From Polytrichum commune (Eukaryota; Streptophyta; Polytrichopsida; Polytrichales; Polytrichaceae), in the NCBI GenBank assembly GCA_950295325.1, contig OX485807.1, forward strand, positions 10,877,001-10,941,000: DNA of 64,000 bases, given 5' to 3'. The notes beneath the pieces were generated by a model. The model was given only the letters and a program-made list of their open reading frames with translations, was not told the DNA's origin and searched no databases. The translations under genes were made by a program, and so were the position numbers. This document shows positions 5,466-52,656 of the stretch, in pieces (the stretch's first letter is position 1; every line of letters starts with the position of its first letter).

Positions 5466-6020
5466 CCCGGGTACGCAACTCCCGTATTATATGGTCCTGA
5501 TTATAATAACTTATAATGCGTTTTAGTCCAATATTGAGTGATACAATTTGTTTTAATGTAGGAAACCCTTGTAGCCCTTCTAACAAGGAATCCAAAAATG
5601 TAATTATATATAGGAAATGAATATATTTTGAAGCATATAATTGTATTAAAAACCTAATTATATGATTTTTTTAATACAGGTACCATAGGTCAAACTACCC
5701 AACTTTTTGGACTTTTTAATAAAATTTTAACATTGCGAATGAATTATAATTTTAATGGGAGGCTTAATAAATATGCAACCCAACTTTTTTTTCATCTCAT
5801 TTATTTAATTTGATCTTCACCCAACTTTTTTTCATGTCATTTTATTTAATTTGGTCTTTATCCAACTTTTTTTTCATCTCATTTTATTTAATTTGGTCTT
5901 CACCCAACTTTTTGATCATTTTAATTTGATATAATTTGATATAATTTTTATAAAAGCCGTCCTCTAAGCCGTTTTAAGTACGATGCCCCCTACGTATAAT
6001 ATGGGAGTTGCGTACCCGGG
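5466..6020. mobile_element. hAT-type MITE, family with CCCGGGTACGCAACTCCC termini (copy 1)
   Basis: The termini are inverted repeats of about 25 bp that start CCCGGGTACGCAACTCCC. They are flanked by a perfect 8-bp target duplication, TCCTATCC (5458-5465 and 6021-6028). The interior is AT-rich, non-coding and carries local repeats of CCAACTTTTTTTC-like words. A second copy is at 26062-26559. An 8-bp duplication points to hAT, though the terminal sequence is unusual for that superfamily. Confidence 0.85.
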
Positions 6021-6302
6021 TCCTATCCATGATATTCTACTCTCGTTATATGTGTGAGTCTAAAGGCTCTACTTATATACTGAGCTCAAAGGACTTCATG
6101 AAATATACAATAATTGATGTAATCCAAGATGTAGAGAATTCAATTATCGTTGGTAAGATAAAGACAACATAATAGGAATAAAAAGAAAGTTGGTGAAGTC
6201 AAAAAGTTAGTTGCATTTTTTAGAAAAGTCTCCCGACACCCGCATTGGAAATCTCTTTGATACCTCTTTGAAGCTTGTATATTAGATTAGTTATCAATTC
6301 AT

Positions 6303-20689: not shown

Positions 20690-21377
20690 CACACACCATC
20701 ACATCTTCAGTGTTGGCTCCACAGTTGAGGAGTATCACTTATCACTACAGCTCCTCCGTCTTCTTAATTGGTGAGTGTGCTCAGTGACCACATAGACTCC
20801 TCAGCTGTCAGCTCATTTCTGTGTACAAGCCGCGCTTTCTGTCACGTGAGCTTATGGCGGTTGCCAATGATTTGCAAAGCTGCAATGACATGTCCTCCTC
20901 AACATTGCCAAGTGGGGGAGAGCTTGACATTCTCTGTCCCGAGGAGCAATCTTAGTTGGGTGCACTTTGGTTCTAGAATCTAATTAGTGCAGGATGTTAG
21001 AATTAGAGTCTTAGTGGTATGCATGACTTTGGTTCTACAATTATACCAATTCAGGATGTTAGAGTAATGTCAACCAGCTGCACTTTGCTTCTAAGATTTT
21101 CTCTACACAAAATGGAAGATTTGCACTTCAAATCTAGTGGAGGCTCCCACTCACACAGGCTTGAAACCCATGAGTATGGGGAAATGGAAATGTACCATAG
21201 TTGTAATAGTTCAGAAAACCATCCACTGGAAGAGTGAATGCAGTGGTAAGGAACGGCAATTCCCATATTGAGGCTTATAGGCTATCAAGGTCCTGAGCTC
21301 TAACACCACACGACGTAGCAACACATGATGCATCATTGTCATGACATATTACTAATTTTTTATGTATGTTTTGTCAG
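20690..21377 (+). other. 5' leader exon and 5'UTR intron of the ginkbilobin-like gene
   Basis: The leader exon would run from about 20690 to a strong donor (GTGAGTG) near 20770. The acceptor TTTTGTCAG ends at 21377, 40 bp before the start codon. The intron of about 610 bp lies entirely in the 5'UTR. This is predicted from splice-site consensus and promoter position only. Confidence 0.5.
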
Positions 21378-21417
21378 GCTCCAAGCGGATTATAGCAGAA
21401 TCGGCAAAGTGAGAATC

Positions 21418-21795
21418 ATGACGAAGCTCATCATAACCCTCGTCATCTTCACGGTGTTCCTCGTGGCATCGGCACAGGCTTACGACGCCACATTCCAATT
21501 TGCGGCTTGCAACACACAAAAGACGACGACGACGAGTGCATTGTACAAGGCGATTGGGTTGGTGCTGTCAGACCTCGCGCAAGAGACCCCTTACAATGGC
21601 TACGATTACAAGGACAGCGAGACGAGCGGAGGGGTGACGGCATGGGGACGTGCCACTTGTAAGTATGGCTTGTCTGATTGCACCGCGTGCTTACAGTACA
21701 TCGGGACCCAAATCCTACCCGCATGTAGCAACGCCGTTGGAGCTCGCTACCAAGTCACCGATTGCTTCATCGAGTACGAGGATTACTCGTTCTGA
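21418..21795 (+). CDS. Ginkbilobin-2-like secreted antifungal-type protein (single DUF26/GNK2 domain)
   Basis: This 125-residue protein starts at an ATG just before a typical signal peptide (MTKLIITLVIFTVFLVASAQA), so export to the apoplast is expected. The mature part of about 104 residues is one GNK2/DUF26 domain with six cysteines for three disulfides. In ginkbilobin-2 an Asn, an Arg and a Glu bind mannose and are needed for antifungal action; here N11, R89 and E100 of the mature chain occupy those places. The core cysteine motif is C-x6-C-x2-C rather than C-x8-C-x2-C, a two-residue shortening. An upstream in-frame ATG at 21325 is rejected because it lies before the splice acceptor. A role in antifungal defence is inferred from the family. 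There are no signs of decay. Confidence 0.88.
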   Translation: MTKLIITLVIFTVFLVASAQAYDATFQFAACNTQKTTTTSALYKAIGLVLSDLAQETPYNGYDYKDSETSGGVTAWGRATCKYGLSDCTACLQYIGTQILPACSNAVGARYQVTDCFIEYEDYSF

Positions 21796-26061: not shown

Positions 26062-26559
26062 CCCGGGTACGCAACTCCCGTATTATATGGTCTTGATTAT
26101 AATCACTTATAATGCATTTTAGTCCAATATTGAGTGATACAATTTGTTTTAATGTAGGAAACCCTTGTAGCCCTTCTAACAAGGAATCCCAAAATGTAAT
26201 TATATTTAGGAAATGAATATATTTTGAAGAATATAATTGCATTAAAAACCTAATTATATGATTTTTTTTAATACATGTACCATAGGTCAAACTATCCAAC
26301 TTTTTGGATTTTTTAATAAAATTTTAACATTGTGAATGAATTATAATTTTAATGGGAGGCAACTATTCGTGGCTTATAATTTTAGTGAGAGGCTTAATAA
26401 ATATGCAACCCAACCTTTTTTTTTATCTCATTTTATTTAATTTGGTCTTCACCCAACTTTTTGATCATTTTAATTTGATATAATTTTTACAAAAGCCGTC
26501 CTCTAAGCCGTTTTAAGAACGATGCCCCCTGCGTATAATATGGGAGTTGCGTACCTGGG
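26062..26559. mobile_element. hAT-type MITE, CCCGGGTACGCAACTCCC family (copy 2)
   Basis: It has the same termini and body as the element at 5466-6020. The left 8-bp target duplication TCCTCAAG is at 26054-26061. The right duplication begins TCCTCAA at 26560-26566 and is completed by the G at 36961, because a 10.4-kb retrotransposon inserted inside it. The MITE is therefore older than that retrotransposon. Confidence 0.85.
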
Positions 26560-26566
26560 TCCTCAA

Positions 26567-27114
26567 TGTCGTGTAAATAGCGATCGTGTGTCACTGCAGC
26601 TCGAGTACCAACCACCACTAACAAACAACACTAAAACATAGCAAAGTAACACATAAACAACACACCTCGACAGAGAAGGAAGAGAGTAGAACACTCACAA
26701 TAGCTCTAAATCTCTCTTCAAATGCACACAACTAGTCAAGCTATCTCTCACTCCACCAAGGGAGAATCCAAGAGTGTAAGTAGGGGAAGAAGAACTCAAG
26801 ATTTATTGCAAAATCATGCAATCTACACCTCACACAAGCTCTCTCCACACACTAACTCACAAGACTTGACTTGGCAAGAATGCCAAGCCAAGGAGGAGGC
26901 TCCTCACTTAGGAGCCTTCCTCTCCACATCTAGATTCATCCATCCAAATTTAGATGGATGAAATCCAACGGATAAGGTGCGGCCGTCGACGCCGCATACC
27001 GTGACAGCTGTCGTGTAAATAGCGATCGTGTGTCACTGCAGCTCGAGTACCAACCACCACTAACAAACAACACTAAAACATAGCAAAGTAGCACATAAGC
27101 AACACACCTCGACA
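26567..27114 (-). repeat. Aberrant 3' LTR: 106-bp repeat, LTR segment, 106-bp repeat
   Basis: Next to the polypurine tract is a 106-bp unit (27009-27114) with termini TGTCG and CGACA. Then comes a 334-bp segment (26673-27006) that matches the first 334 bp of the 5' LTR with roughly eight differences by eye. A second copy of the 106-bp unit (26567-26672, two differences from the first) forms the outer end. The remaining ~920 bp of the 5' LTR type are missing. The outer end is a true integration end because it abuts the TCAA duplication. A template switch during reverse transcription is the simplest idea, but not proven. Confidence 0.75.
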
Positions 27115-27116
27115 TG

Positions 27117-27125
27117 CCCCCCCTC
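27117..27125 (-). promoter_or_regulatory. Polypurine tract of the methyltransferase retrotransposon
   Basis: On the coding strand GAGGGGGGG is followed by CA and then TGTCGAGG, the start of the 3' LTR. Position and composition fit a plus-strand primer for reverse transcription. Confidence 0.75.
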
Positions 27126-27401
27126 AGCTGACTATGGAGTTCCGCCAAGCAGCTAGGACCAACGCCAATCTAAAGGGCATGGATAATGAAAGATTGCTCC
27201 GTAACTAACTAGTGTGGTAAACGTTATTCTAAGGGACTGTAGGCTGGGTGCAAGGTGAGCCCCATCCTTAATCGCCTCTGATGTTTGGCCATCAAATCCC
27301 AAAGAATTAAATCCACCGCCTCATGTTGATTGTGTCTCTAAGCCATAACTCCTCATTTTCCATTTGGGTAGGCACAAGATGATGAAAACCACACAGGATC
27401 A

Positions 27402-27578
27402 TTAAGTACGATTGGTGGAAGCACCAAGTACCGAAGATCCTCGACAGCGAGGACAACTCCACTGTCCAGATGGTAGAGAAGTCAAGGGTGGCCTCAAGCA
27501 TACCATGTGTCAACCGCGTTGACACTGATCACACAAGAGCATAGTAGCCGCTCCTTTCTTCTCTCCACACACAAAACA
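27402..27578 (-). pseudogene. PHD finger at the C-terminus of pol
   Basis: In the integrase frame, residues encoded at 27578 down to 27444 fit a C4HC3 PHD finger: C-x2-C-x11-C-x2-C-x4-H-x2-C-x14-C-x2-C, with the conserved Trp two residues before the seventh Cys (QWSCPRC). The frame ends at a TAA (27402-27404) 13 codons later, so the finger is the end of the polyprotein. One TGA (27510-27512) sits at the aromatic position just before the His; it is one G-to-A change from TGG. PHD fingers mostly read histone H3 tails, so by analogy with the chromodomains of chromoviruses this one may direct integration or the methylase to chromatin. That role is inference; the zinc ligands are directly visible. 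Confidence 0.85.
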
Positions 27579-29003
27579 TGGAAGACCGTCTGGCACGACG
27601 GCCAGTTCAAGATGAACTGTACCCTCAATAGGTAGATGACATGGGGCACAATTTTTGGAATGCTCGCGACATTCCCTGCCATCCTTGCCTTCCAACAACA
27701 AACCACTCGGCAACACCTCCTTCACCCGAAGGATAGTACGCCCCGCCCTGACATCCAATGTCGTAGGCGCCTCACGTTGGAGGTAGACATAATCCCCTTG
27801 CCGAAATCTCCGCAACTGAGGTCGGTAAGCACCACTACGAATGCGTGCATAACGCAATGTGTCACGGTGCTGAGCAATGGACAAATTCTCCATGGCCATA
27901 GGCATGGCCCTCTGGAAGAATTGAGCCCGCTCCTGCAAACACTCTGCCCAAAGGTCTGGGTCATCCAAGTTCACAACAGGAGCTAGTTTTTCCCGAATAG
28001 AACTCGGGAGTATAGGCTCACGTTCATACAATAATTGATACGGGCTGTAGGATGCCAAAGAGGCCTGCCTACTAAATCGATAACCCATAGCAATCCAAGG
28101 CAACATAAGGTCCCAATCCCGGTGGCTTCCCCGAAGTAATCCATACTTCCTCAAGCCACGCTTGGTTGTCTGAACAACCCGTTCAACCAAGCCATCTGCC
28201 TCCGGAAGATCCCGAGAGGTGGTGCGGTGATCTATGAGCGCATTAGTGCACAACTCCTCAAAAACACCAAGGAACTCCCTCCCTTGGTCCGTCAACACCT
28301 CAGCCGGTGCTCCAAAACGTGCCAACACACGATCCAAAAAGGCGGCCGCGGCCAACTCTGCAGAGTTTTGGGGTAAAGCAACAAGCTCAATCCACTTGCT
28401 AAAATGCTCCACCATCACCAACACGTACTTTGCTCCACGTGGCGTGACAACCAACGGTCCCACAAAGTCTAGCGACCAACGGTAGCCCAATCCCATGATA
28501 GGTAAGGGCTGTAACTAAGGTGACAAGGTGTTAAAGCTAGACCTGACCCGGTCACAAACTTCACACCTCCCGACATAAGCAGCCACCTGTTGATACATGC
28601 CAGTTCACCAATATTGGCCACGCAACATCGAATGTGTCCTGCGTATGCCAAAATGGCCAAGTTCCTCGTGTACTTGTCGCACCAAGGAGGTCCTCTGATC
28701 CGGCCTAGGAACAATACGCCTTGTCCCATCTGGCCACAATTGAAATAACAAACCGTTCTCCCAACGGAACCTTGTTATTCGATGTCCAATCCTATCCCTT
28801 TCCATTGCCGAAATAGACAAAGGAAAGGTACCCTGTTGAAGCTTATGCAATACGGGAAGATCCTCCCATATATCCATAATAGCTTGAGGCCGATCAGTCT
28901 CATCATCCGAACCCTGTATCGGAATCTCAACAGATGCACCAGAAAATAAAGTAGTAGGCAGCCGCGTGCCAACCTGGAACCGCCTCTCGATCACAATCTC
29001 CAT
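27510..29003 (-). pseudogene. Ty3/gypsy integrase, broken by two nonsense codons and offset by a frameshift
   Basis: The segment 29003-28605 encodes the linker after RNase H and the first half of the HHCC zinc domain (VHEELGHFG; His-x4-His). The Cys pair (CEVC) follows after a TGA at 28605-28607. After a TAG at 28515-28517 the core continues from 28496: SLDFVG (D10 from the first Met), LTDQG (D70) and ADGLVER (E105), the DDE triad with a 34-residue D-E gap. A basic C-terminal domain (RFRQGDYVYL...) then runs into the PHD finger. The integrase frame differs from the RNase H frame, so a frameshift lies near 29005-29030. The domain would insert the cDNA into host DNA. Confidence 0.88.
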
Positions 29004-30528
29004 GCCATCTGGCCCCGGTCAAGTCCTCATCTGAAGGATTTGGATTGCGTGAGAGTCCATCTGCATCCATGTTGGTAATCCCAGTACGGTGTACCACCTC
29101 AAAATCATACTCCTGGAGCAATAAAGCCCACCTGGCAAGCTTGCTAGTAAGCTTATCCGACTCCATGAGCCACCGTAACGGCTGATGGTCAGTCACTAAA
29201 GTAAAGTGCTGACCATAAAGATACGGCCGAAAATGGGCAATAGCCCATACCGCCGCTAATGCTTCTCCCTCGTAGGATGAATAATTAACCTCCGCCGTGT
29301 TATTGCTTCGCGAAGCGTAAGCAACAACATACTCCCGACTAAAATCATCCTTCTGAGTGAGAACTGCTCCCAAACCCAATAAACTCCAATCTGTATGCAA
29401 CTGGAAAGATTTGGAGACATCTAGACGTCGAAGCACTGGAGCCGTACCCAGTTTCTGCTTCAATGTCTCAAACGCCTGTTGTTGCTCACGACCCCAAGTC
29501 CACGGTTGGTCCTTGCTCGTGAGAATGGTGAGAGGCTTGGCGATCAAGCTAAAATTCTTGACGAATCGCCGATAGTAATTCGCCAAGCCCAAGAAAGCAC
29601 AAAGTCTCGGCACATCAACCTGTGCCGGAATCTTTTGCAAGGCGTCCACCTTAGTTTGTTGTACCCCAAGACCTCCTAGAACAATCATATGCCCCAGATA
29701 TGCCAGCCGGTCATGGAAAAACTTGCACTTGCCGTGGTGCAAGCATAATCCCCACCGCTGCAACCGCTCAAAAACAGCTTGAAGATGCCTTACATGCTCC
29801 TGTGGTGTTATACTGAAAATGATAACGTCATCAATGTAACACCGAGCAAAGGGTAAGCCAGAGAGAACTTGGTCCATCACTCTCTGAAACTCCGCAGGTG
29901 CATTCTTCAGGCCAAACGGAAGAAACTTCCAATGGTAAAGTTGATCCTTTCCATCTTGATCAACTCCCCAGAATGCGGTTTTCACTCAGTCTCCCACAAG
30001 TAATGGGAGTTGGTGATAGCCGGATCTCAAGTCCAACGTGCTAAAAACTCGAGCAAATCCGAGGGCATCGAACAACTCCTCCGGGATTGGCATGGGATAT
30101 CGATCCAACTTGGTTTTTCGATTAACTGGACGGTAATCCCCGCACATCCGTTTCTCCGTCCAATTGCCAAAGATATCATTTTTCGATGGCATAACCGTAG
30201 CACAAGCATACTCCCCGTTGGAAAGTTCGATTAGCCTTGCTGCCAAAAGCTCTCGGCAACGAGCCTGAACGCCGCTCCGCTCGGAAACACTGAGCCTATA
30301 AGGTCTCCGAAAAATGGGATGGTCGTCCTCCAACTGAATGTGGATGGGTTTTCCTTTATAACCTTCAAGATCCTGAAGGCTAAAAGCAAAACATCTACGG
30401 TACGAGCGAATAAATGCTCGTACCTTCCGTGCCTCAGCACCAGTGAGACAAGGGCCTAATTCAAGTGGCCAATCATCAAACTCTGTAGTCTCCGTCTCCA
30501 CCAAAGGAGAACCACCTGATGCTGGCAC
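28927..30528 (-). pseudogene. Reverse transcriptase and RNase H of the methyltransferase retrotransposon
   Basis: 30528-29986 encodes the start of RT: substrate palm residues (STLDLRSGYHQ) and the LxPSKND region. A TGA at 29986-29988 interrupts the frame. From 29985 the same frame continues with KTAFWG, FLPFGLKNAPAEFQ and the catalytic YIDD, then the thumb (FLGLANYYRRF) and an RNase H domain with acidic residues in QLHTDWS, YEGEAL and LVTDHQPL. Motif order and wording are typical of Ty3/gypsy. The end near DADGLSR marks the passage to integrase, where the frame shifts. Together they would copy the genomic RNA into DNA inside virus-like particles. Confidence 0.92.
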
Positions 30529-30540
30529 AGACTCTAATTG

Positions 30541-32307
30541 CTAATGAGAAGAGGGGGCATTAACCATGCCCCCAGTCTCGGTGCTAGTACTAGAGTCTGA
30601 CATTTCTTCATCACCACCAATATGTGATGATGAAGCCACCACCGGAGGCGAAGAAACCGAAGCAGTGTAAAAATGTTGAGCTCGAAGCTCCTCCATCACA
30701 TGCTGCTCGAATTGAAAAACTCGTTCGGCTTCTCCAACCATGGCGTGAATTCCCTCTTCCATGGGTGTGGACCGCTGTGCCCCCTGACCAAAGTCCTCTG
30801 CCCCCAGAGACAACCACTGGTCACCACGATGCCTTTGCAATGAAAGGCATAAAGCAACAGTCCATACCATAGTATGAAGATCCATAGCTTGGCCCAACAC
30901 GAAGCGTCGTTGGCCCTCAGAAAGGCCGGGAGCTGCGGTGGTGCCAGTGCGGAATCCCATGGCACGTTCCCGTTCGTCAGCCAATGGTTCGGTGTGGGTT
31001 TTGGTGTGAACATCCCACACCATACCCGGCCCCCTATCGCGGAAAACGAATGACTGTGGAAACGTCATAAATGTGGGAAAGGCCCGCCGTGGTGCCCCCA
31101 TTTTGTTGACCAATGCCAACGGGGGTAAATCATCTCGAATAACCGGCAAAGAAGTCCGGTTTGGATCCAACATGTCATCCACCTTTTGATCAAAAGGTGG
31201 AGGCAGTGCAGAAAATGTTGCAGCTAAAGTAGATGACGGTGTGAGGTTGGTCCAAATCCACCGAGGTCGGTGGGCATAAGAACCAATGCTCGCGGCATCC
31301 ACAAAAATGGGATCTCCAAGGTGTTGACGAACATAATAATCGCCTTCCAACACCTTGTCCCGAGAGTCTCCCAACAAAGGTACATTCTCGAAGATATACC
31401 CTGGAGGGGAAGGTTGGTGGGTAAACCACCACTGCATAAGCCGGATGAGGTCCCAGAAAAGGCTAGACCTGGGATCCTCTAAACCTCGGCCTGCTCCAGC
31501 ACGTGAGTGGCCTTGGCATGGCCATCCCGCAATCACCATATCCACCGGGCCCAAGTGTCGTAAGTCGGCCTCACTGATGAGTGTAACATCACGAGGGAGA
31601 CGTAAAAAACACCCACAAATGGCAGTTGGAGGTAACTGCTGGGGGTACAATACCATCAACTGGTGAAGATGGTGACGAGCCACACGGGTGGACACTTGAG
31701 AGTTGTCCACATAGACATACCATCTAACCGTGAGGTCAGCCTCCAATACGGCCGCTAAGCCTGTGCCGATGCCTCCAAACAGTTCCACCAAAATAATCCC
31801 CGCGTCTGGCGGTTGCCATAAAATGGGATCTGCCAATGCCGAGAGGACACCCGGTATGATCGGTGTCCTAGGAGTAAGAGAATGAACAATATCCTCGCAC
31901 CTCCGAAATAGCTCGGCGGAATCACGCCAAGGAGGAAGGGGATCCTTGGGATGGCGCACCAATGCATTTTTAGGTGCCATATCCCGTTGATCGTCTGTAC
32001 TCCCCATGAATGCCAATGACTCCTCCAACAATGCGGAACCATAAGGCAATGTGTCCACCATAGCACCACATCCAAAAACCATAGATAATGGTGCTATGGT
32101 CGCGGCCGCCGCGAAAGCTACGGGAATAAGTTCCCTGCGGCCATCCCCAGCCGACCAACCTGGTCGGATCCACGCCTCCTCAGTCCAGTTGTCCAAACCA
32201 AAACCAAGAGGGTAAAGTGCTTGCTGACCAACTAAAATGTCATAGTTGGTCGCATTTGTCACCGCACACCTAAGAAGAAGAGGTGCGGGTGAATCTCCAG
32301 GCTTCAC
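30541..32307 (-). pseudogene. C5-cytosine DNA methyltransferase domain embedded in pol, DNMT3-like with canonical motif order
   Basis: The 588-codon frame opens downstream of a TAA (32326-32328) in the protease frame and closes with a TAG at 30541-30543. Its first 50 residues are the end of the aspartic protease (YDILVGQQAL). Residues about 168-492 form a C5-methyltransferase: motif I VELFGGIGTG (177-182), motif IV GWPCQGHSRAG with catalytic Cys264, motif VI FENV (307-309), motif VIII AHRPRWIW (345-352) and motif X LGQAMDLHT (471-479). The order I to X is unlike the permuted plant DRM enzymes. Motif VIII and the ERERAMGF segment resemble DNMT3, although PCQ replaces the PCN of animal DNMT3. 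All key catalytic residues are intact. The last 90 residues are acidic and Ser/Thr-rich. Expected activity: cytosine methylation of element cDNA or target chromatin (inference). Confidence 0.93.
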
Positions 32308-32325
32308 TCGGAAGCTAAGCTGTAA

Positions 32326-33060
32326 TTATGGCTCTCGAGTATAACCCATGGCTCGCTCCACGTGACCAATGGATGTGACAATGGTGAATGGACAGGGAGC
32401 CAAATCCTCGGCCGTCAACCTCAACTCTTGGGCAAGCCTCTTGCCGATCATAACTGGTTGTGCCCCTGAATCCATCATCACACAACGGGGAGCAACCCGA
32501 GTAGCATTGCTCCCAGTGCGACTGACCACCAAAATTCCGGTATTATTCACCATACGCACAACACCGGGTCGAATGCCGCGGCGCTCGCGGACAGGTCTAG
32601 CAGCGACATCAGACAGATAGGCTGCACCCGCGGATACTGGTGAGTCATAAGACGTGGTCGGTGCCTTGTCATCTGAGGCGTGTGCGTCAAAAGACGCAAT
32701 GGTCTCTGCCGCAAATCTCGCACGCCGTTTGGCCACATCCTCAGGATCTTCAGAAGCAGGGATGTCCATAGTGGCTTGAGCCACGGTCAGAGAAGGTAAT
32801 GATGCCTTCCCTTCCAAAATCCTACCTGCTAAGTGAAAAACCTTAGCAGGTTGGAACTCTGGCGATGACCACTCCATGGCCGTGAACAAAGGTGTGTGCA
32901 ACACCTTGGATGCCAACGTGTGCGCCACATCAGTCGCTGAATGTGAAACCTCATCGTTTGGATGACGACCACTGACAGATTGGACGGCATCGGCCAATCC
33001 AAAAGATAATGGTAGTCGTGCCTGACCAATTTGGTCCGCGGGCGCATTGTCCCGAGCTCG
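32326..33060 (-). pseudogene. Aspartic protease region of pol
   Basis: The frame contains a retropepsin active site (VMMDSGAQPVMIG) near 32470, after a variable, low-similarity linker. Protease cleaves the gag-pol polyprotein. The domain continues past the TAA at 32326-32328 into the start of the methyltransferase segment. This frame joins gag across an 8-bp tandem repeat near 33055-33075; the Met at 32997 is therefore not a true start. Confidence 0.85.
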
Positions 33061-34637
33061 CGAGCTCGCGAGCTTGCCACATATTCATTTGTAGTCAAAG
33101 GTATGGATTGTGACACGGCTTGAGCACGTGTCACGGCCGTGGAACTCACCACCTCGCCCGAGGCTCCGAACATATAATAATCTGGAGTGGAAGAACTAGC
33201 CTGAGCTCCGGAGGAAGACGGTGAGGCCAAGATTTGGCCGAATGACGCCAAGCTTTTGAACCTCTCCTCCATGACTCCAATCTTCGCCTCCAACGTCTTC
33301 TCCCGGTCGGAAGAAGGATGTTTCTCAGGATGGAGAGCAAAGCAGTTTTCTATCGCGTGATTGTTCCGCCCACAATGGGAACACTTCAACTGCTTGGGTA
33401 ACTGATTACCCGTCATCCCCTTCGCCGAGCCCTTAGCGGGAACAAATGGTTTCCGCTTCGGAGTAGTGACGGTCTGGGCTTGCCTTTGCTTCGAAGGACA
33501 GTCCTTCTTAGCATGGCCGGCCTGCCCACAAGACCAACAATACATGGTCTTGTCTACCTCGGCCTCCGCCAATCCCGCAGCCGCAACCGGAACTCTTCGG
33601 GATTTGCTAGAATCCACAAGCAAGGACACCAAATCAATGGCATCGTGCTGACATAATGCACGATCACACTGCTCCACCACGGCGAATGCCTCTGCGAGTG
33701 TCGCTCGACCATCAAACTCCATGATGATCCTGGGTAGCGCCAAGTCAAGGAGACGTTTGTCAATCTTTGACAAAAACACCTTCACCAACTGACTTTCCGC
33801 GAACACACCTCCAGATTCTCTGGCAAACCTCGCCAACCTCGTATACATGGTACGAGGTGTATCATCCTTATCCCGTCTGAAATCTTGTATCCGCTGCATT
33901 TGGTCACGACGGAAGCCTCCGTACTCCCCCTGTAGATGCAGCTCAAATGCCCGCAATGGCTCAAAATCTGGCGGAGCCCCTAAAGAGGCTAAAGCCACTT
34001 GGGTGGCCATGGCATAACGCGAGAGTAGAAGAACTGGGCTCGACGTACTCGCCGCAGTGGGAACAGGACCCGTAGCCCTCGGCTCATCAGGAGGAGCTCC
34101 CTCCACATCCACCACATAACCTCCCTTCGGTACCTCCGTCTTGACATCCGGAACGGCCATGAAACTGGAAGCTGCGCCTTCCTTCAATGCGGATACCAAC
34201 TCAACCCGAGTCTCCCAGTATCGCTCCACCTGGCGCAGCTCCATCCAATGAGCCTCTGTCCACTGCTCATAAGTTTGGAGAGCTTCATGCTCCAAATGCT
34301 GAGGCAGAAGCTCAAACGCATACCAATCGTTAAAATTGGTATTGCGTTGGCGTTTCTCTCGCATCCACGTACGAAACTGGATTTTCCAGTCTTGCAGAGA
34401 AATGGTCCCTGCTCGACCGAAAAACCGGTCCCGTATCCCTCCCCTAGTCTCCTCCTCCATATCGTCAAAGGTTCCCACCCACAGGACGTGAGACCGAGTG
34501 ATAGTCCCCCACGCCGAAGTAGGCTGAAAAGCCTCGTTGGGTGCTACCACTGGTTCAACGTCCAAGAGGTCCGAGGGATGACCTTCCGATGCTCCTGGGG
34601 ACAGAGAACGATAGTGTTGAGTACGAGTTGTAACCAT
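32829..34637 (-). pseudogene. Gag with two CCHC zinc knuckles
   Basis: It starts at an ATG (34635-34637) at the 3' end of the leader. Residues about 210-360 hold the capsid-like helical retrotransposon gag domain (FRRDKDDTPRTMYTRLARF, FLSKIDKRLLDLALP). Two zinc knuckles follow: CWSCGQAGHAKKDC near residue 366 and CSHCGRNNHAIENC near residue 416, both C-x2-C-x4-H-x4-C, which package the RNA. The C-terminus beyond about residue 525 is a wrong-frame tail: a tandem GAGCTCGC duplication at 33055-33075 shifts the frame, and the protease continues in another frame. Gag forms the virus-like particle in the cytoplasm. Confidence 0.9.
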
Positions 34638-35684
34638 AAACCCACAATGGGATGGTCACCGAATCAACAACCCAAATGAATTAGTATCCAGGTACAAAGA
34701 GAAAAAGGGTCAAAGGCAACCTGCACCTGCAACCACCACCAAAATTTATGGTCTGCTGGTCATTAACCCAGCCTCACCACAAGTGAAAACAAGCACCGCC
34801 CACTTGGTGCACAAACAAAGGTCCCGTCGGTCATTAATCCGACCTTACCTCCACAGTACCCTATCACAATCTAGGACTACACAAAATGGGGCAGTGCTAG
34901 AACACTCCAGCACTACAGCCCGCCACAGGGGAAGGTACCAAAACAAAATACAAGGAACAATGCAAGAACAACACTAGATCCTCTTCCCCAAAACAACATT
35001 CAAGCAGAAATTGAAAACGACCGCAACCAACTGGCACCCGCCTGCAGTTGGTGGTCAAAATAAAAAGCCCCTGTTGCTTAAGAAAAGAAATTGCATAAGC
35101 ACATCGCTCATCTAGTGCTACAACATAAAATCCTCTCCTCCCCGAAGTCCCGGGAATTTGTGTTTCTAAACACAATTCGCCCTTAACAATGATATTGTTA
35201 AGTCGAATGGTAATTCCATGTACCAATTTGCCCCACCCCTCGGCAATTCCCTAAACAATCTATAAACTTATCCCAAAATAAAATTTACAACAACAATCAA
35301 CCTATCCCCAAATAAATCCTAACACTCACAACATCCTAAAATGATTCATAACGCCCACAAATTGCCCCTAAATAAATCCAATACCCACAACCCGCCTCAA
35401 TTAAATCCAATGCCCACCACCTGCCCCTAAATAAATTCAACGATCACAACCCGCCCCTAATCCTTTTAAGCAAAAGGGAAAAAAATGAAAATCCCACTAT
35501 GCCAAGTACCTCTATCAAGTCGAGGTGAAAGGTGAATAAACCAATCGCAAATGGCCGCGATCCAACGCCCTCCGCGTGTTGCCGAATGCGTTCGCGAACC
35601 TCTCCCGCAATGCTCCACCCTCCCGAATCCCAAAAAGCCTTAATGGTCCATAAGGCATTTAGAAACGCCGGTATCGGATCGTCT
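34638..35684 (-). other. Untranslated leader of the methyltransferase retrotransposon
   Basis: About 1.05 kb lie between PBS and gag without a long frame. On the plus strand, 34755-34860 carries the words GGTCATTAACCCAGCC and CGGTCATTAATCCGACC. Very similar words occur at 54870-54935 inside another LTR-like insertion, which suggests shared ancestry or a shared RNA signal. Repeated CCCCTAAATAAAT motifs lie at 35300-35460. Confidence 0.6.
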
Positions 35685-35695
35685 CCGAGTCCCCA
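35685..35695 (-). promoter_or_regulatory. Primer-binding site
   Basis: On the coding strand the 5' LTR ends AAGAACA, followed by AAT and TGGGGACTCGG. TGG at its start pairs with a tRNA CCA end, and the rest would pair with a tRNA 3' arm ending CCGAGUCCCCA. The tRNA identity cannot be fixed here; it is not the common initiator-Met type. Confidence 0.6.
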
Positions 35696-35699
35696 AATT

Positions 35700-36956
35700 T
35701 GTTCTTGATTAATGGCAATAACCTTGGCAACAATACTTGTCCAAAGGTTTGGTTCACAAAGCCAAGACTATATAGGAAACTCTATAGAGATAGAGATATA
35801 TTGAAATATATCTACATAATATTTTTGAAAATAAAAATAAAAATAATTTATTATTATTATTTTGGTATAAAAAAAAATGAAGAATGGGGGAGGGTTGCTG
35901 GCTGCTGCAGGGCCCCGAAAAGGGGGGGTGGGGGGGGGGAACCACGTGGCGGGGGGGGGGGCGGGGGGTAGGGTTTAGCTGGAGGGGGAGGGGGTAACCT
36001 AGGGGATCTAGGCTAGGAGGGGGGACCGGGGTGGGGGTTCGCCTAGGGAATCTAGGCTAGGGGAGGGAGGAAGGAGGGGCAACCTCCTTAAATGGGGGAA
36101 GGGAGGTAGGTGACGAGGGGGGGAAGAGGAAGGTAGGGAAGGAAGGGAGGAGGAAGGGGGGGAGGAGGGGCCGCTAGGCAGGGTTGGCCGCTGCCCGGGC
36201 ACCGGCGGGCAGGCCGCCGGTTGCCGCCGAGTGGGGGCGGCCCAGCAAGGCCAGGAGCTCCGGCTCCGGAAGCCAACTCTTGCCCTCCTCCTCCCTAAAT
36301 TTTTTTTTTAAAAGATTTTAAATAAATCTTACTTGAATCCGCATCAAGAGTTCTCCTTCACAACTTAATGGCATGAATTCGTGCTTGTAAGCAACCAAAT
36401 GATACAAAATTCCGTGGGAAATTCAAAAATTTCTCACCACAATTCAAAATGATGTGCACACATCACAAGCACACATTTTTCCTCCTTGTTTCTCCGCAAT
36501 TCCGCAATGTTTGTCTTCCTTCACTCCAAAATCTCGCAACCACTTGTCCTCACACTCTTTCTCGAGTGTTGGAGCTCAAGATTTGAAGAAAAGAGAAAGA
36601 ATCATGCACATTCTTGCCAAGTGAGAAGAAAGAAAGTAGAACAGTCACAATAGCTCTAAATCTCTCTTCAAATGCATACAACTAGTCAAGCTATCTCTCA
36701 CTCCACCAAGGGAGAATCCAAGAGTGTAAGTAGGGGAAGAAGAACTCAAGATTTATTGCAAAATCATGCAATCTACACCTCACACAAGCTCTCTCCACAC
36801 ACTAGCTCACAAGACTTGACTTGGCAAGAATGCCAAGCCAAGGAGGAGGCTCCTCACTTAGGAGCCTTCCTCTCCACATCTAGATTCATCCATCCAAATC
36901 TAGATGAATGAAATCCAACGGATAAGGTGCGGCCGTCGACGCCGCATACCGTGACA
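35700..36956 (-). repeat. 5' LTR of the methyltransferase retrotransposon (1257 bp)
   Basis: Coding-strand start TGTCACGGTATGCGG at 36956 and end AATCAAGAACA at 35700, next to the PBS. Its first 334 bp are shared with 26673-27006. A G-rich tract on the plus strand (35920-36180, many runs of four or more G) lies in the inner half, so the RNA sense strand is C-rich there. The outer end abuts the TCAA duplication. Confidence 0.8.
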
Positions 36957-36961
36957 TCAAG

Positions 36962-49878: not shown

Positions 49879-52656
49879 ATGATGAGGTACACAAATGAAC
49901 TCAAAATCCAAGTAAATTTTGGCCAAGAACTTAACCTCAACCCAAAGACTCAAGAATGCTTAAAATTCACAAGAGTCTTAAACTCACACACAAGAGCATA
50001 CAATTTGAAATTTTTGGCCAAGGCCTCAACCCCATATACAAGAGCTAACAATCACAAACTTTTGGCCAATGCCTTAACCTCACACACAAGAGCCACTAAT
50101 CTGATATGTTTGGCCAAGGCTTTAACCTCATATACAAGAGCCCACAATCTGAAATATTTGGCCAAGGCCTTAACATCACATTCAAAAGCCTACAATCTGA
50201 AATTGTTGGCCAAGGCCTTAACCTCACACACAAGAGCCAACAATCTGAAATTTTTGGGCAAGGGCTTAACCTCACACACAAGAGCCACTAATCTGATATG
50301 TTTGGGCAAGGGCTTAACCTTACACACAAGAGCCACTAATCTGATATGTTTGGCCAAGGACTTAACCTCATATACAAGAGCCTACAATCACAAATTTTTG
50401 GCCAAGCCCTTAACCTCATATAGAAGAGGATACAATCACAAATTTTTGGCCAAGGCCTTAACCTCACATACAAGAGCCACTGATCTGATATGTTTGGCCA
50501 AGGACTTAACCTCATATACAAGAGCCTACAATCACAAATTTTTGGCCAAGCCCTTAACCTCATATAGAAAAGGATACAATCACAAATTTTTGGCCAAGGC
50601 CTTAACCTCACATATAAGAGCCCCTAATCTGATATGTTTGGCCAAGGCCTTAACCTCACATACAAGAGGCTACAATAACAAGTTTTTGGCCAAGGCCTCA
50701 ACCCCATATACAAGATCTAACAATCACAAACTTTTGGCCAATGCCTTAACCTCACACACAAGGGCCACTAATCTGATATGTTTGGCCAAGGCTTTAACCT
50801 CATATACAAGAGCCCACAATCTGAAATATTTGGCCAAGGCCTTAACATCACATTCAAAAGCCTACAATCTGAAATTGTTGGCCAAGGCCTTAACCTCACA
50901 CACAAGAGCCAACAATCTGAAATTTTTGGCCAAGGCCTCAACACCATATACAAGAGCTAACAATCTAAAATTTTTGGGCAAGGGCTTAACCTCACACACA
51001 AGAGCCCCTAATCTGATATGTTTGGCCAAGGCCTTAACCTCACATACAAGAGGCTACAATAACAAATGTTTGGCCAAGGCCTCAACCCCATCTACAAGAG
51101 CTAACAATCACAAACTTTTGGCCAATGCCTTAACCTCACACACAAGAGCCACTAATATGATATGTTTAGCCAAGGCTTTAACCTCATATACAAGAGCCCA
51201 CAATCTGAAATATTTGGCCAAGGCCTTAACATCACATTCAAAAGCCTACAATCTGAAATTGTTGGCCAAGGCCTTAACCTCACACACAAGAGCCAACAAT
51301 CTGAAATTTTTGGCCAAGGCCTCAACACCATATACAAGAGCTAACAATCTAAAATTTTTGGGCAAGGGCTTAACCTCACACACAAGAGCCCCTAATCTGA
51401 TATGTTTGGCCAAGGCCTCAACCCCATCTACAAGAGCTAACAATCACAAACTTTTGGCCAATGCCTTAACCTCACACACAAGAGCCACTAATCTGATATG
51501 TTTGGCCAAGGCTTTAACCTCATATACAAGAGCCCACAATCTGAAATATTTGGCCAAGGCCTTAACATCACATTCAAAAGCCTACAATCTGAAATTGTTG
51601 GCCAAGGCCTTAACCTCACACACAAGAGCCAACAATCTGAAATTTTTGGGCAAGGGCTTAACCTCACACACAAGAGCCACTAATCTGATATGTTTGGGCA
51701 AGGGCTTAACCTTACACACAAGAGCCACTAATCTGATATGTTTGGCCAAGGACTTAACCTCATATACAAGAGCCTACAATCACAAATTTTTGGCCAAGCC
51801 CTTAACCTCATATAGAAGAGGATACAATCACAAATTTTTGGCCAAGGCCTTAACCTCACATACAAGAGCCACTGATCTGATATGTTTGGCCAAGGACTTA
51901 ACCTCATATACAAGAGCCTACAATCACAAATTTTTGGCCAAGCCCTTAACCTCATATAGAAGAGGATACAATCACAAATTTTTGGCCAAGGCCTTAACCT
52001 CACATACAAGAGCCACTGATCTGATATGTTTGGCCAAGGACTTAACCTCATATACAAGAGCCTACAATCACAAATTTTTGGCCAAGCCCTTAACCTCATA
52101 TAGAAGAGGATACAATCACAAATTTTTGGCCAAGGCCTTAACCTCACATATAAGAGCCCCTAATCTGATATGTTTGGCCAAGGCCTTAACCTCACATACA
52201 AGAGGCTACAATAACAAGTTTTTGGCCAAGGCCTCAACCCCATATACAAGATCTAACAATCACAAACTTTTGGCCAATGCCTTAACCTCACACACAAGGG
52301 CCACTAATCTGATATGTTTGGCCAAGGCTTTAACCTCATATACAAGAGCCCACAATCTGAAATATTTGGCCAAGGCCTTAACATCACATTCAAAAGCCTA
52401 CAATCTGAAATTGTTGGCCAAGGCCTTAACCTCACACACAAGAGCCCACAATCTGAAATATTTGGCCAAGGCCTTAACATCACATTCAAAAGCCTACAAT
52501 CTGAAATTGTTGGCCAAGGCCTTAACCTCACACACAAGAGCCAACAATCTGAAATTTTTGGCCAAGGCCTCAACACCATATACAAGATCTAACAATCTGA
52601 AATCTTTGGGCAAGGGCTTAACCTCACACACAAGAGCCACTAATCTGATATGTTAG
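49879..52656 (+). other. 925-codon open frame across the minisatellite, probably not a gene
   Basis: An ATG-initiated frame runs through the whole array and would encode about 57 copies of a 16-residue unit of the type LAKALTSHTRANNLKF. The peptide is very basic, with no signal peptide, no membrane segment and no recognised domain. Other frames of the same array on both strands are also open over many units. The first 35 codons before the array show no special feature. I regard it as a by-product of the repeat; transcription has not been shown. Confidence 0.25.

Follow-up and report, generated by a model that had tools for sequence, protein, structure and literature searches.

A DNMT3-like methylase in a multicopy Ty3/gypsy element of Polytrichum commune, with an integrated form suggestive of a circular precursor

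What a retroelement might gain from encoding a DNA cytosine methyltransferase (DNMT), and by what route such an element enters the genome, are questions raised by a locus of Polytrichum commune. The window, meaning the whole stretch of 64,000 nucleotides analyzed here (contig OX485807.1, positions 10,877,001 to 10,941,000; C5:10877001-10941000), contains a Ty3/gypsy-type element whose polyprotein includes a DNMT3-like enzyme. Retroelement-borne DNMTs are known but unexplained, and the anatomy of this family suggests both a dose for the enzyme, at the level of Gag, and a place, the particle. The window element is multicopy and belongs to a known kind, and its integrated form is unusual and well supported. 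The known kind is represented by KnitGypsy-Dnmt3, described from Klebsormidium nitens in 2018 (de Mendoza et al.; PMC5890265). Beyond that report, the family has a leaky-type stop after the methylase, a permuted, circle-like integrated form and what appears to be Tf1-like self-priming. Taken as a whole, it is likely that a decayed multicopy element encodes Gag-protease-DNMT, reaches pol by readthrough, primes its own reverse transcription and integrates from a cut circle carrying two long terminal repeats (LTRs).

The methylase and the family that carries it

The minus strand holds an open reading frame (ORF) of 588 aa at exactly 30541..32307, while no frame is open on the plus strand there. 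It comprises a protease tail followed by the methyltransferase domain (residues 165-500; 30808..31815, minus strand), and it matches the Pfam family DNA_methylase (PF00145) with an E-value of 6e-12. Motifs that we take to be I (LFGGIGT), IV (WPCQG, with Cys264) and VI (ENV), then VIII, IX and X, follow one another in canonical, non-permuted order. Across an alignment of 17 sequences, L176, F177, G179, C264, Q265, E307, N308 and other residues are invariant, and the domain of the window copy is uninterrupted and has them all. The surrounding Pfam domains follow the Ty3/gypsy order of gag, protease, reverse transcriptase (RT), RNase H and DDE integrase, with the integrase behind RNase H. The earlier note, made from the letters of the window, had described a C5-methyltransferase with a protease tail and canonical motifs inside a Ty3/gypsy polyprotein, a description that the ORF, the Pfam matches and the alignment bear out.

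The note had also called the enzyme DNMT3-like rather than DRM-like, and similarity in both sequence and fold agrees. A single-sequence search of solved structures gave DNMT3A as its top match (7e-9). When a profile of the 17 sequences was run against the PDB, the 57 entries up to E=1 included DNMT3A at 4e-19, HaeIII at 2e-9, HhaI at about 1e-7, DNMT2 at about 1e-4 and entries named DRM2 at 8e-4, with no entry named for DNMT1 or a chromomethylase among them. Chain 4onj, named only DNA methyltransferase and presumably the tobacco DRM, scored 6e-7. The AlphaFold2 model of residues 160-500 has a mean pLDDT (predicted local distance difference test) of 93.9, and a fold search with it returned DNMT3B and DNMT3A as the best matches (E about 1e-20), DNMT3 entries making up all of the best 50 of 1170 matches. 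A permuted, DRM-like enzyme was ruled out by the canonical motif order and the profile ranking. The backbone of a DNMT tree was not resolved, its outgroup being one DNMT3A fragment and six viral-contig enzymes (six of the nine methylases L001-L009 from the viral collection IMG/VR), and it carried long-branch warnings. The assignment as DNMT3-like is therefore supported by motif order, profile and fold, of which the last two are no substitute for a tree with the host enzymes.

The methylase is a family trait. A scan of the genome from which the window comes (407.8 Mb in 64 contigs) found at least 74 copies of the ORF, including that of the window (74 scored of 731 first-look candidates), which rules out a one-off insertion, the outcome that the earlier note had held against its own proposal. 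Pooled ratios of nonsynonymous to synonymous divergence (Ka/Ks; 210 pairs from 21 copies) are 0.28 for the DNMT domain, 0.53 for the linker before it and 1.01 for the tail after it, as compared with 0.11 for RT and 0.18 for the integrase. Cys264 and Glu307 are each kept in 20 of the 21 copies, and five of the 21 are free of stops across the DNMT and pol codons compared, a count of stops alone. A distant relative, L010 (CADCWO010000201.1), is a closed copy whose ends overlap by 127 nt; it is filed as a cyanobacterial metagenome contig, probably as contamination of that genome. Between it and the window element, Ka is 0.28 for the DNMT and 0.06 for RT, with synonymous sites near saturation. By these ratios the methylase domain is under purifying selection; it evolves faster than RT, yet far from freely.

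The window copy itself looks dead, its frames from gag to integrase being broken by further stops and frame changes (all of the following on the minus strand). The gag ORF (32829..34637) has a CCHC zinc knuckle just under the Pfam cut-off (PF00098), and the aspartic-protease region (32326..32997), a weak Pfam match, lies in a frame different from that of gag. RT and RNase H (28927..30528) form two ORFs here, split by a stop, and the integrase (27510..29003) has an H2C2 zinc domain and a broken rve core. At its C terminus is a PHD finger (27444..27587, limits approximate) that contains a stop in this copy and is intact in L010 (PF00628, E 4e-10).

The earlier note had placed RT in the same frame as the methylase. 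The frame is indeed the same, but RT lies behind a UAG at 30541-30543, which is retained in all 21 copies compared and in L010. The context of this putative leaky stop (30535..30543, minus strand), TAGCAATTA, reads TAG CAA TTA (UAG-CAA-UUA) in 21 of 21 copies. L010 has TAG CAA TCA at the same place, with the next frame in the same phase; its gag-protease-DNMT is one open frame and its RT-integrase-PHD another, neither holding a stop. Both contexts fit UAG CARYYA, the readthrough type of tobacco mosaic virus and other tobamoviruses (PMC2754532). The UAG CAA UYA core is alike in the two systems; in the window element it is Gag-protease-DNMT that the stop separates from RT-integrase. Because the methylase lies upstream of a leaky-type stop, it may be made at the level of Gag rather than of Pol. 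Judging from this context, Gag and the methylase probably build up together, while readthrough would yield RT-integrase as a minor product.

Integrated form, joints and priming

The integrated element, 10,390 bp with the ends TGTCAC...CACGACA, occupies 26567..36956 on the minus strand, between target-site duplications (TSDs) of TCAA at 26563..26566 (3' side of the element) and 36957..36960 (5' side). In element orientation the layout is A1 (334) - leader - ORFs - tract - B1 (106) - GC - A2 (334) - B2 (106), all parts on the minus strand. Repeat A1 (36623..36956) forms the 5' end and contains the putative R-U5 part of the LTR as RT would define it. The polypurine tract GAGGGGGGGCA (27115..27125) directly precedes B1 (27009..27114). 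B1 meets A2 (26673..27006) at the palindromic junction GACA-GC-TGTC (B1.GC.A2; 27003..27012), a putative internal integrase site, and A2 is followed by B2 (26567..26672) at the 3' end, their joint being the presumed circle-closing ligation. If the element and one TCAA are removed, a neighboring inverted-repeat element (CCCGGGTACGCAACTCCC...) regains its 8-bp duplication. The latter has two copies in the window, one at 26062-26559 adjoining the retroelement and one at about 5466-6024 with its own 8-bp duplication.

This form is general in the family: genomic copies have A as their 5' end (TGTCAC) and B as their 3' end (GACA), and not B first and A last. Among the 73 non-window copies, both ends of 20 and the 3' end alone of 40 were sampled, leaving 13 outside the sample. 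With the window copy this gives 61 3' ends, of which 38 read ..B.GC.A-B and eight ..B only; in one, A2 is truncated and B2 is missing from the stretch, and a further 14 lack B in the part fetched. Both ends are available for 18 copies, all differing in flanking sequence; the 4-bp TSD is perfect in 17 of them and matches at three of four positions in the other. One copy among those read has identical repeats and is therefore a recent insertion. The TG..CA ends and 4-bp TSD fall within the Ty3/gypsy pattern (TSD of 4-6 bp). In contrast, the integrated form expected of Ty3/gypsy, with two direct LTRs, is not what is seen, as the copies run A..B.GC.A-B. A probe for a conventional 5' LTR (B.GC.A1-leader) found none contiguous in the best 40 of 1075 candidates, which gave 34 B.GC.A, with 34 further B rows alongside, and six A-leader. 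The split direct repeats A1-ORFs-B1A2B2 are as in DIRS/PAT-like elements. The other marks of that group, a tyrosine recombinase with neither integrase nor TSD, are not those of this family, and Pfam found no tyrosine recombinase in the window element or in L010.

Complementarity next to A1 points to the manner of priming. The putative primer-binding site directly after A1, ACTTGGCAAGAATG (36609..36622, minus strand), is perfectly complementary to a 14-nt segment of A, the putative self-primer CATTCTTGCCAAGT (A positions 125-138; 36819..36832, minus strand). The exact 14-mer is present in A1 of 17 of 19 copies. L010 has the primer-like site ACTTGACAAAGAT with a 13-nt complement inside its A. 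In neither case did any of 500 letter shuffles yield a stretch as long, the best reaching 10 for the window and 12 for L010. Between the two elements, three differing positions in the paired stretch are matched by changes in the partner, as expected of compensatory change, and a fourth, at the end, is unmatched. Priming by tRNA was ruled out, the primer-like site of L010 being ACTTGACAAAG, without TGG. The arrangement looks like the self-priming of Tf1 of fission yeast, in which the primer site beside U5 is reportedly bound by a 5' segment of the RNA; the pairing in the window element and L010 is of 13-14 nt and is read from sequence.

The priming site and the polypurine tract therefore define the LTR made by RT as B.GC.A. 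In L010, B.GC.A is contiguous, the tract again lies 106 nt from the palindrome, and a 21-nt core, TTTACACGACAGCTGTCACGG, is identical in the two elements. The palindrome with at most one mismatch has 176 matches in the genome, against two for the control, and CpGs at -6 and +6 of the cut are common to the two distant relatives. Many of the listed one-mismatch palindromes are a CACGT variant, ACACGACAGCTGTCACGT, which marks a second, abundant subfamily (G000, genome-wide). A palindrome match in the IMG/VR contig L011 was rejected as a relative, since it has other short repeats around it, and was taken as chance.

Ligated cDNA ends would be expected to leave traces of the priming sites at some of the A/B joints. 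Among the 38 A/B joints, six are clearly imprecise and a seventh is ambiguous. The inserts are TGAGGGGGGGCA (12 nt, the polypurine tract), TTATGAG, TAT and ACTA; one joint has lost 24 nt of A and one 2 nt of B. The ambiguous joint, C5:14946719, can be read either as TG changed to AC or as an ACT insert beside a 3-nt loss from B. Joints were counted as exact in length even where TA replaces TG (three joints), where a single base at the A end differs (four), or where B2 or A2 has an internal loss (one each). Genome-wide, the joint pattern, by which joints with changed ends are not counted, occurs at 58 sites (reversed control, 1). Of these, 50 are exact, three have A, three have ACT, one has the tract and one has 28 unrelated nt, which may be chance. 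ACT is the first three nucleotides of the primer-like site.

Proposed replication and its alternatives

Based on these observations, replication may be pictured as follows. The DNMT3-like methylase would be made as the C-terminal part of Gag-protease-DNMT, and readthrough of the UAG-CARYYA stop would add RT-RNase H-integrase-PHD. Reverse transcription would be self-primed from the segment of repeat A, with plus strands starting at the G-rich tract, to yield a linear cDNA with B.GC.A LTRs (B.GC.A-int-B.GC.A). Ligation of its ends would give a 2-LTR circle with the joint A/B. The DDE integrase would then cut the palindrome CA/GC/TG inside one LTR, so that the GC between the two CA is lost; at the palindrome-bearing site, GACAGCTGTC, the cut would fall after CA on both strands. 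Insertion of the permuted molecule A-ORFs-B.GC.A-B would duplicate 4 bp of the target. Provided that it is packaged with Gag, the methylase would most likely act on the element's double-stranded cDNA or circle before or at integration.

Circular DNA forms are usually thought to be dead ends; for retroviruses, it has long been debated whether 2-LTR circles can be integration precursors. The copies in this genome preserve what looks like nature's own record of circular DNA integrating. The palindrome, the missing GC, the remnants of primer site and tract at the joint, and the TSDs make the question of a circular precursor testable in one plant genome. The integrase of prototype foamy virus cleaves the palindrome that 2-LTR circles contain, and integration was proposed in the same study to lose the 2 nt that separate the two CAs (PMC1180852); HIV-1 integrase cuts the 2-LTR palindrome as a tetramer (PMC1905944). 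In those viruses the palindrome arises from the joined LTR ends, whereas the window element has its palindrome within the LTR, away from the ligation joint.

Several points weigh against this scheme. The circle, the readthrough product, the cleavage of the primer and the methyltransferase activity are all predictions from sequence, and support for the priming, the tract and the palindrome from beyond the window's genome comes from one relative, L010. The best shuffle of L010, at 12, came within one base of its observed 13-nt complementarity, and its closed contig shows B.GC.A and not the A/B joint. A 2-LTR circle has two palindromes, yet the copies show a bias to one product. The second product of cutting, A-B.GC.A-ORFs-B, is absent from the 5' stretches (A in 19 of 21, B in 0 of 21) and from the best 40 of 1075 candidates found with the B.GC.A1-leader probe. 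For the eight copies ending in ..B, the source could be 1-LTR circles or a later recombination between B1 and B2, and part of the 50 exact joints among 58 could have been copied from a parent rather than made anew. Finally, the gypsy version studied in 2018 showed no activity in yeast, a result called inconclusive there (PMC5890265). A doubtful extension would make the 2-LTR circle an obligatory precursor, the integrase site being inside the LTR, with the DNMT marking the palindrome of the first-made LTR so that only that of the last-made LTR is cut. If true, such marking would account for the single arrangement observed, which is the one whose transcription can yield a complete template, and the methylase of a retroelement would take a direct part in integrating that element.

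It is improbable that the split repeats are instead copied in each round from B1A2B2 RNA, with B1.A2 as the template for closing a single-strand circle and without any ligation of a linear LTR cDNA, as in DIRS/PAT-like replication. The layout A1-ORFs-B1A2B2 is indeed that of PAT-type elements, and both the single arrangement and the 50 of 58 pattern-matched joints that are exact would follow. Furthermore, the Fig. 4 legend of PMC5890265 ascribes DIRS-like repeats, along with gypsy-like domains, to the K. nitens element. Against such replication, however, stand the DDE integrase, the TSDs, the TG..CA ends and the lack of a recombinase match; the polypurine tract abuts B and the primer-like site abuts A, and several of the joint inserts are exactly the flanks of these two. 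It is scarcely credible that a conventional LTR retrotransposon inserted first and had its repeats rearranged later, with the methylase as a passenger. The window copy is decayed and retroelements sometimes pick up host genes, but the 3' layout is common to 38 of 61 copies, the 18 two-ended copies have flanks of their own and 17 perfect TSDs, B.GC.A is contiguous in L010 and the methylase domain is under purifying selection.

Two further alternatives concern the enzyme rather than the repeats. If the UAG before RT were a mere lesion, or if pol were reached by a frameshift or from a spliced RNA, the methylase would be made at the dosage of Pol. DNMT and RT do share one frame in the Klebsormidium proteins P0101, P0074 and P0059; nevertheless, a CARYYA-type stop in all 21 copies and again in L010 makes this very unlikely. 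That the methylase targets RNA, or host chromatin at the insertion site, rather than the cDNA of the element is a more open matter, though still rather unlikely. The PHD finger of the L010 integrase resembles those of CHD4, PHF12, UHRF1 and KDM5, which read histone H3. An RNA target was raised by the 2018 authors for the versions in LINE elements (PMC5890265). In both sequence and fold, however, the enzyme is nearer to DNMT3 than to DNMT2.

Relatives and further observations

Relatives were found among proteins of Klebsormidium, Marchantia, Calypogeia and Closterium and in many metagenome proteins. In viral contigs, no relatives of ORF2 were found. P0007, named as a methylase of Candidatus Obscuribacterales, is of the same kind as L010. 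The Klebsormidium protein P0101 (KFL_009030040), in which the DNMT precedes RT in one frame, is 47% identical to L010 over 88% of ORF2; we infer that it is the published KnitGypsy-Dnmt3 element. Like the window element, KnitGypsy-Dnmt3 has a gypsy pol and a non-rearranged Dnmt3 domain under purifying selection (PMC5890265). The window family differs in belonging to another genome, with at least 74 copies, and in a methylase that ends at a leaky-context stop, so that the expected dose changes. The terms 'split direct', 'PHD', 'circular' and 'self-prim' are absent from the main text of PMC5890265.

That paper confirms the precedent of methylase-bearing retroelements that the earlier note had named. 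The statement that CG methylation was shown for some of them holds for the dinoflagellate DIRS versions, the only ones with such activity in yeast, and not for the gypsy version. Self-methylation, disguise and host-sparing were already proposed there as roles (PMC5890265). The dinoflagellate SymbioDIRS-Dnmt3 and SymbioLINE-Dnmt likewise carry a DNMT; they are tyrosine-recombinase and LINE elements, respectively, which the authors consider unrelated to the gypsy one (PMC5890265). A captured nucleic-acid-modifying domain, although a different enzyme, is also found in an orchid Ty3/gypsy element with an N6-methyladenosine demethylase domain (PMC9289625), and a 2025 survey cites retrotransposon DNMT3s as previously reported (PMC12344493). 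Searches of the open-access literature, which did not name every feature, met with neither a leaky stop nor a self-priming pairing in DNMT elements, nor with an internal integrase palindrome with joint remnants, a PHD finger or a DNMT between RNase H and integrase.

In an RT tree of 94 rows, made by a quick method and with long-branch warnings, 16 rows with the DNMT after RNase H fall on one side of a branch with a support of 100 in the SH-like approximate likelihood-ratio test (SH-aLRT). The 13 rows with the DNMT before RT need 10 changes, a count that says little because 65 rows are 'unknown', many of them with an ORF that starts behind a stop. P0101 lies in the same RT set, its exact place in this tree being weakly held.

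A related gypsy set has the DNMT between RNase H and integrase (P0096, P0098, P0100, P0102-P0107, P0109, P0112, P0119 and others), and Tetrabaena P0132 is a degenerate copy of this type. In Tetraselmis P0134 and P0146, the DNMT stands before RT. From these sequences, the DNMT-bearing gypsy kind seems to extend to chlorophytes. In the metagenome protein P0045, the DNMT stands behind an RNase H-like tail, and no integrase was recognized after it. Motif IV reads WECQ in place of WPCQ in P0039 and P0041 (Closterium), P0088, P0094, P0096, P0100, P0102, P0106, P0107, P0119, P0159 and P0160, so that glutamate has replaced the proline before the catalytic cysteine in several lineages. Elsewhere in the window, an ORF of 925 aa at 49879-52656 consists of tandem repeats (TSHTRATNLICLAKAL...) and is probably a satellite-like array, and 21325-21795 encodes a DUF26 (stress-antifung, PF01657) protein for which 15 relatives were found.

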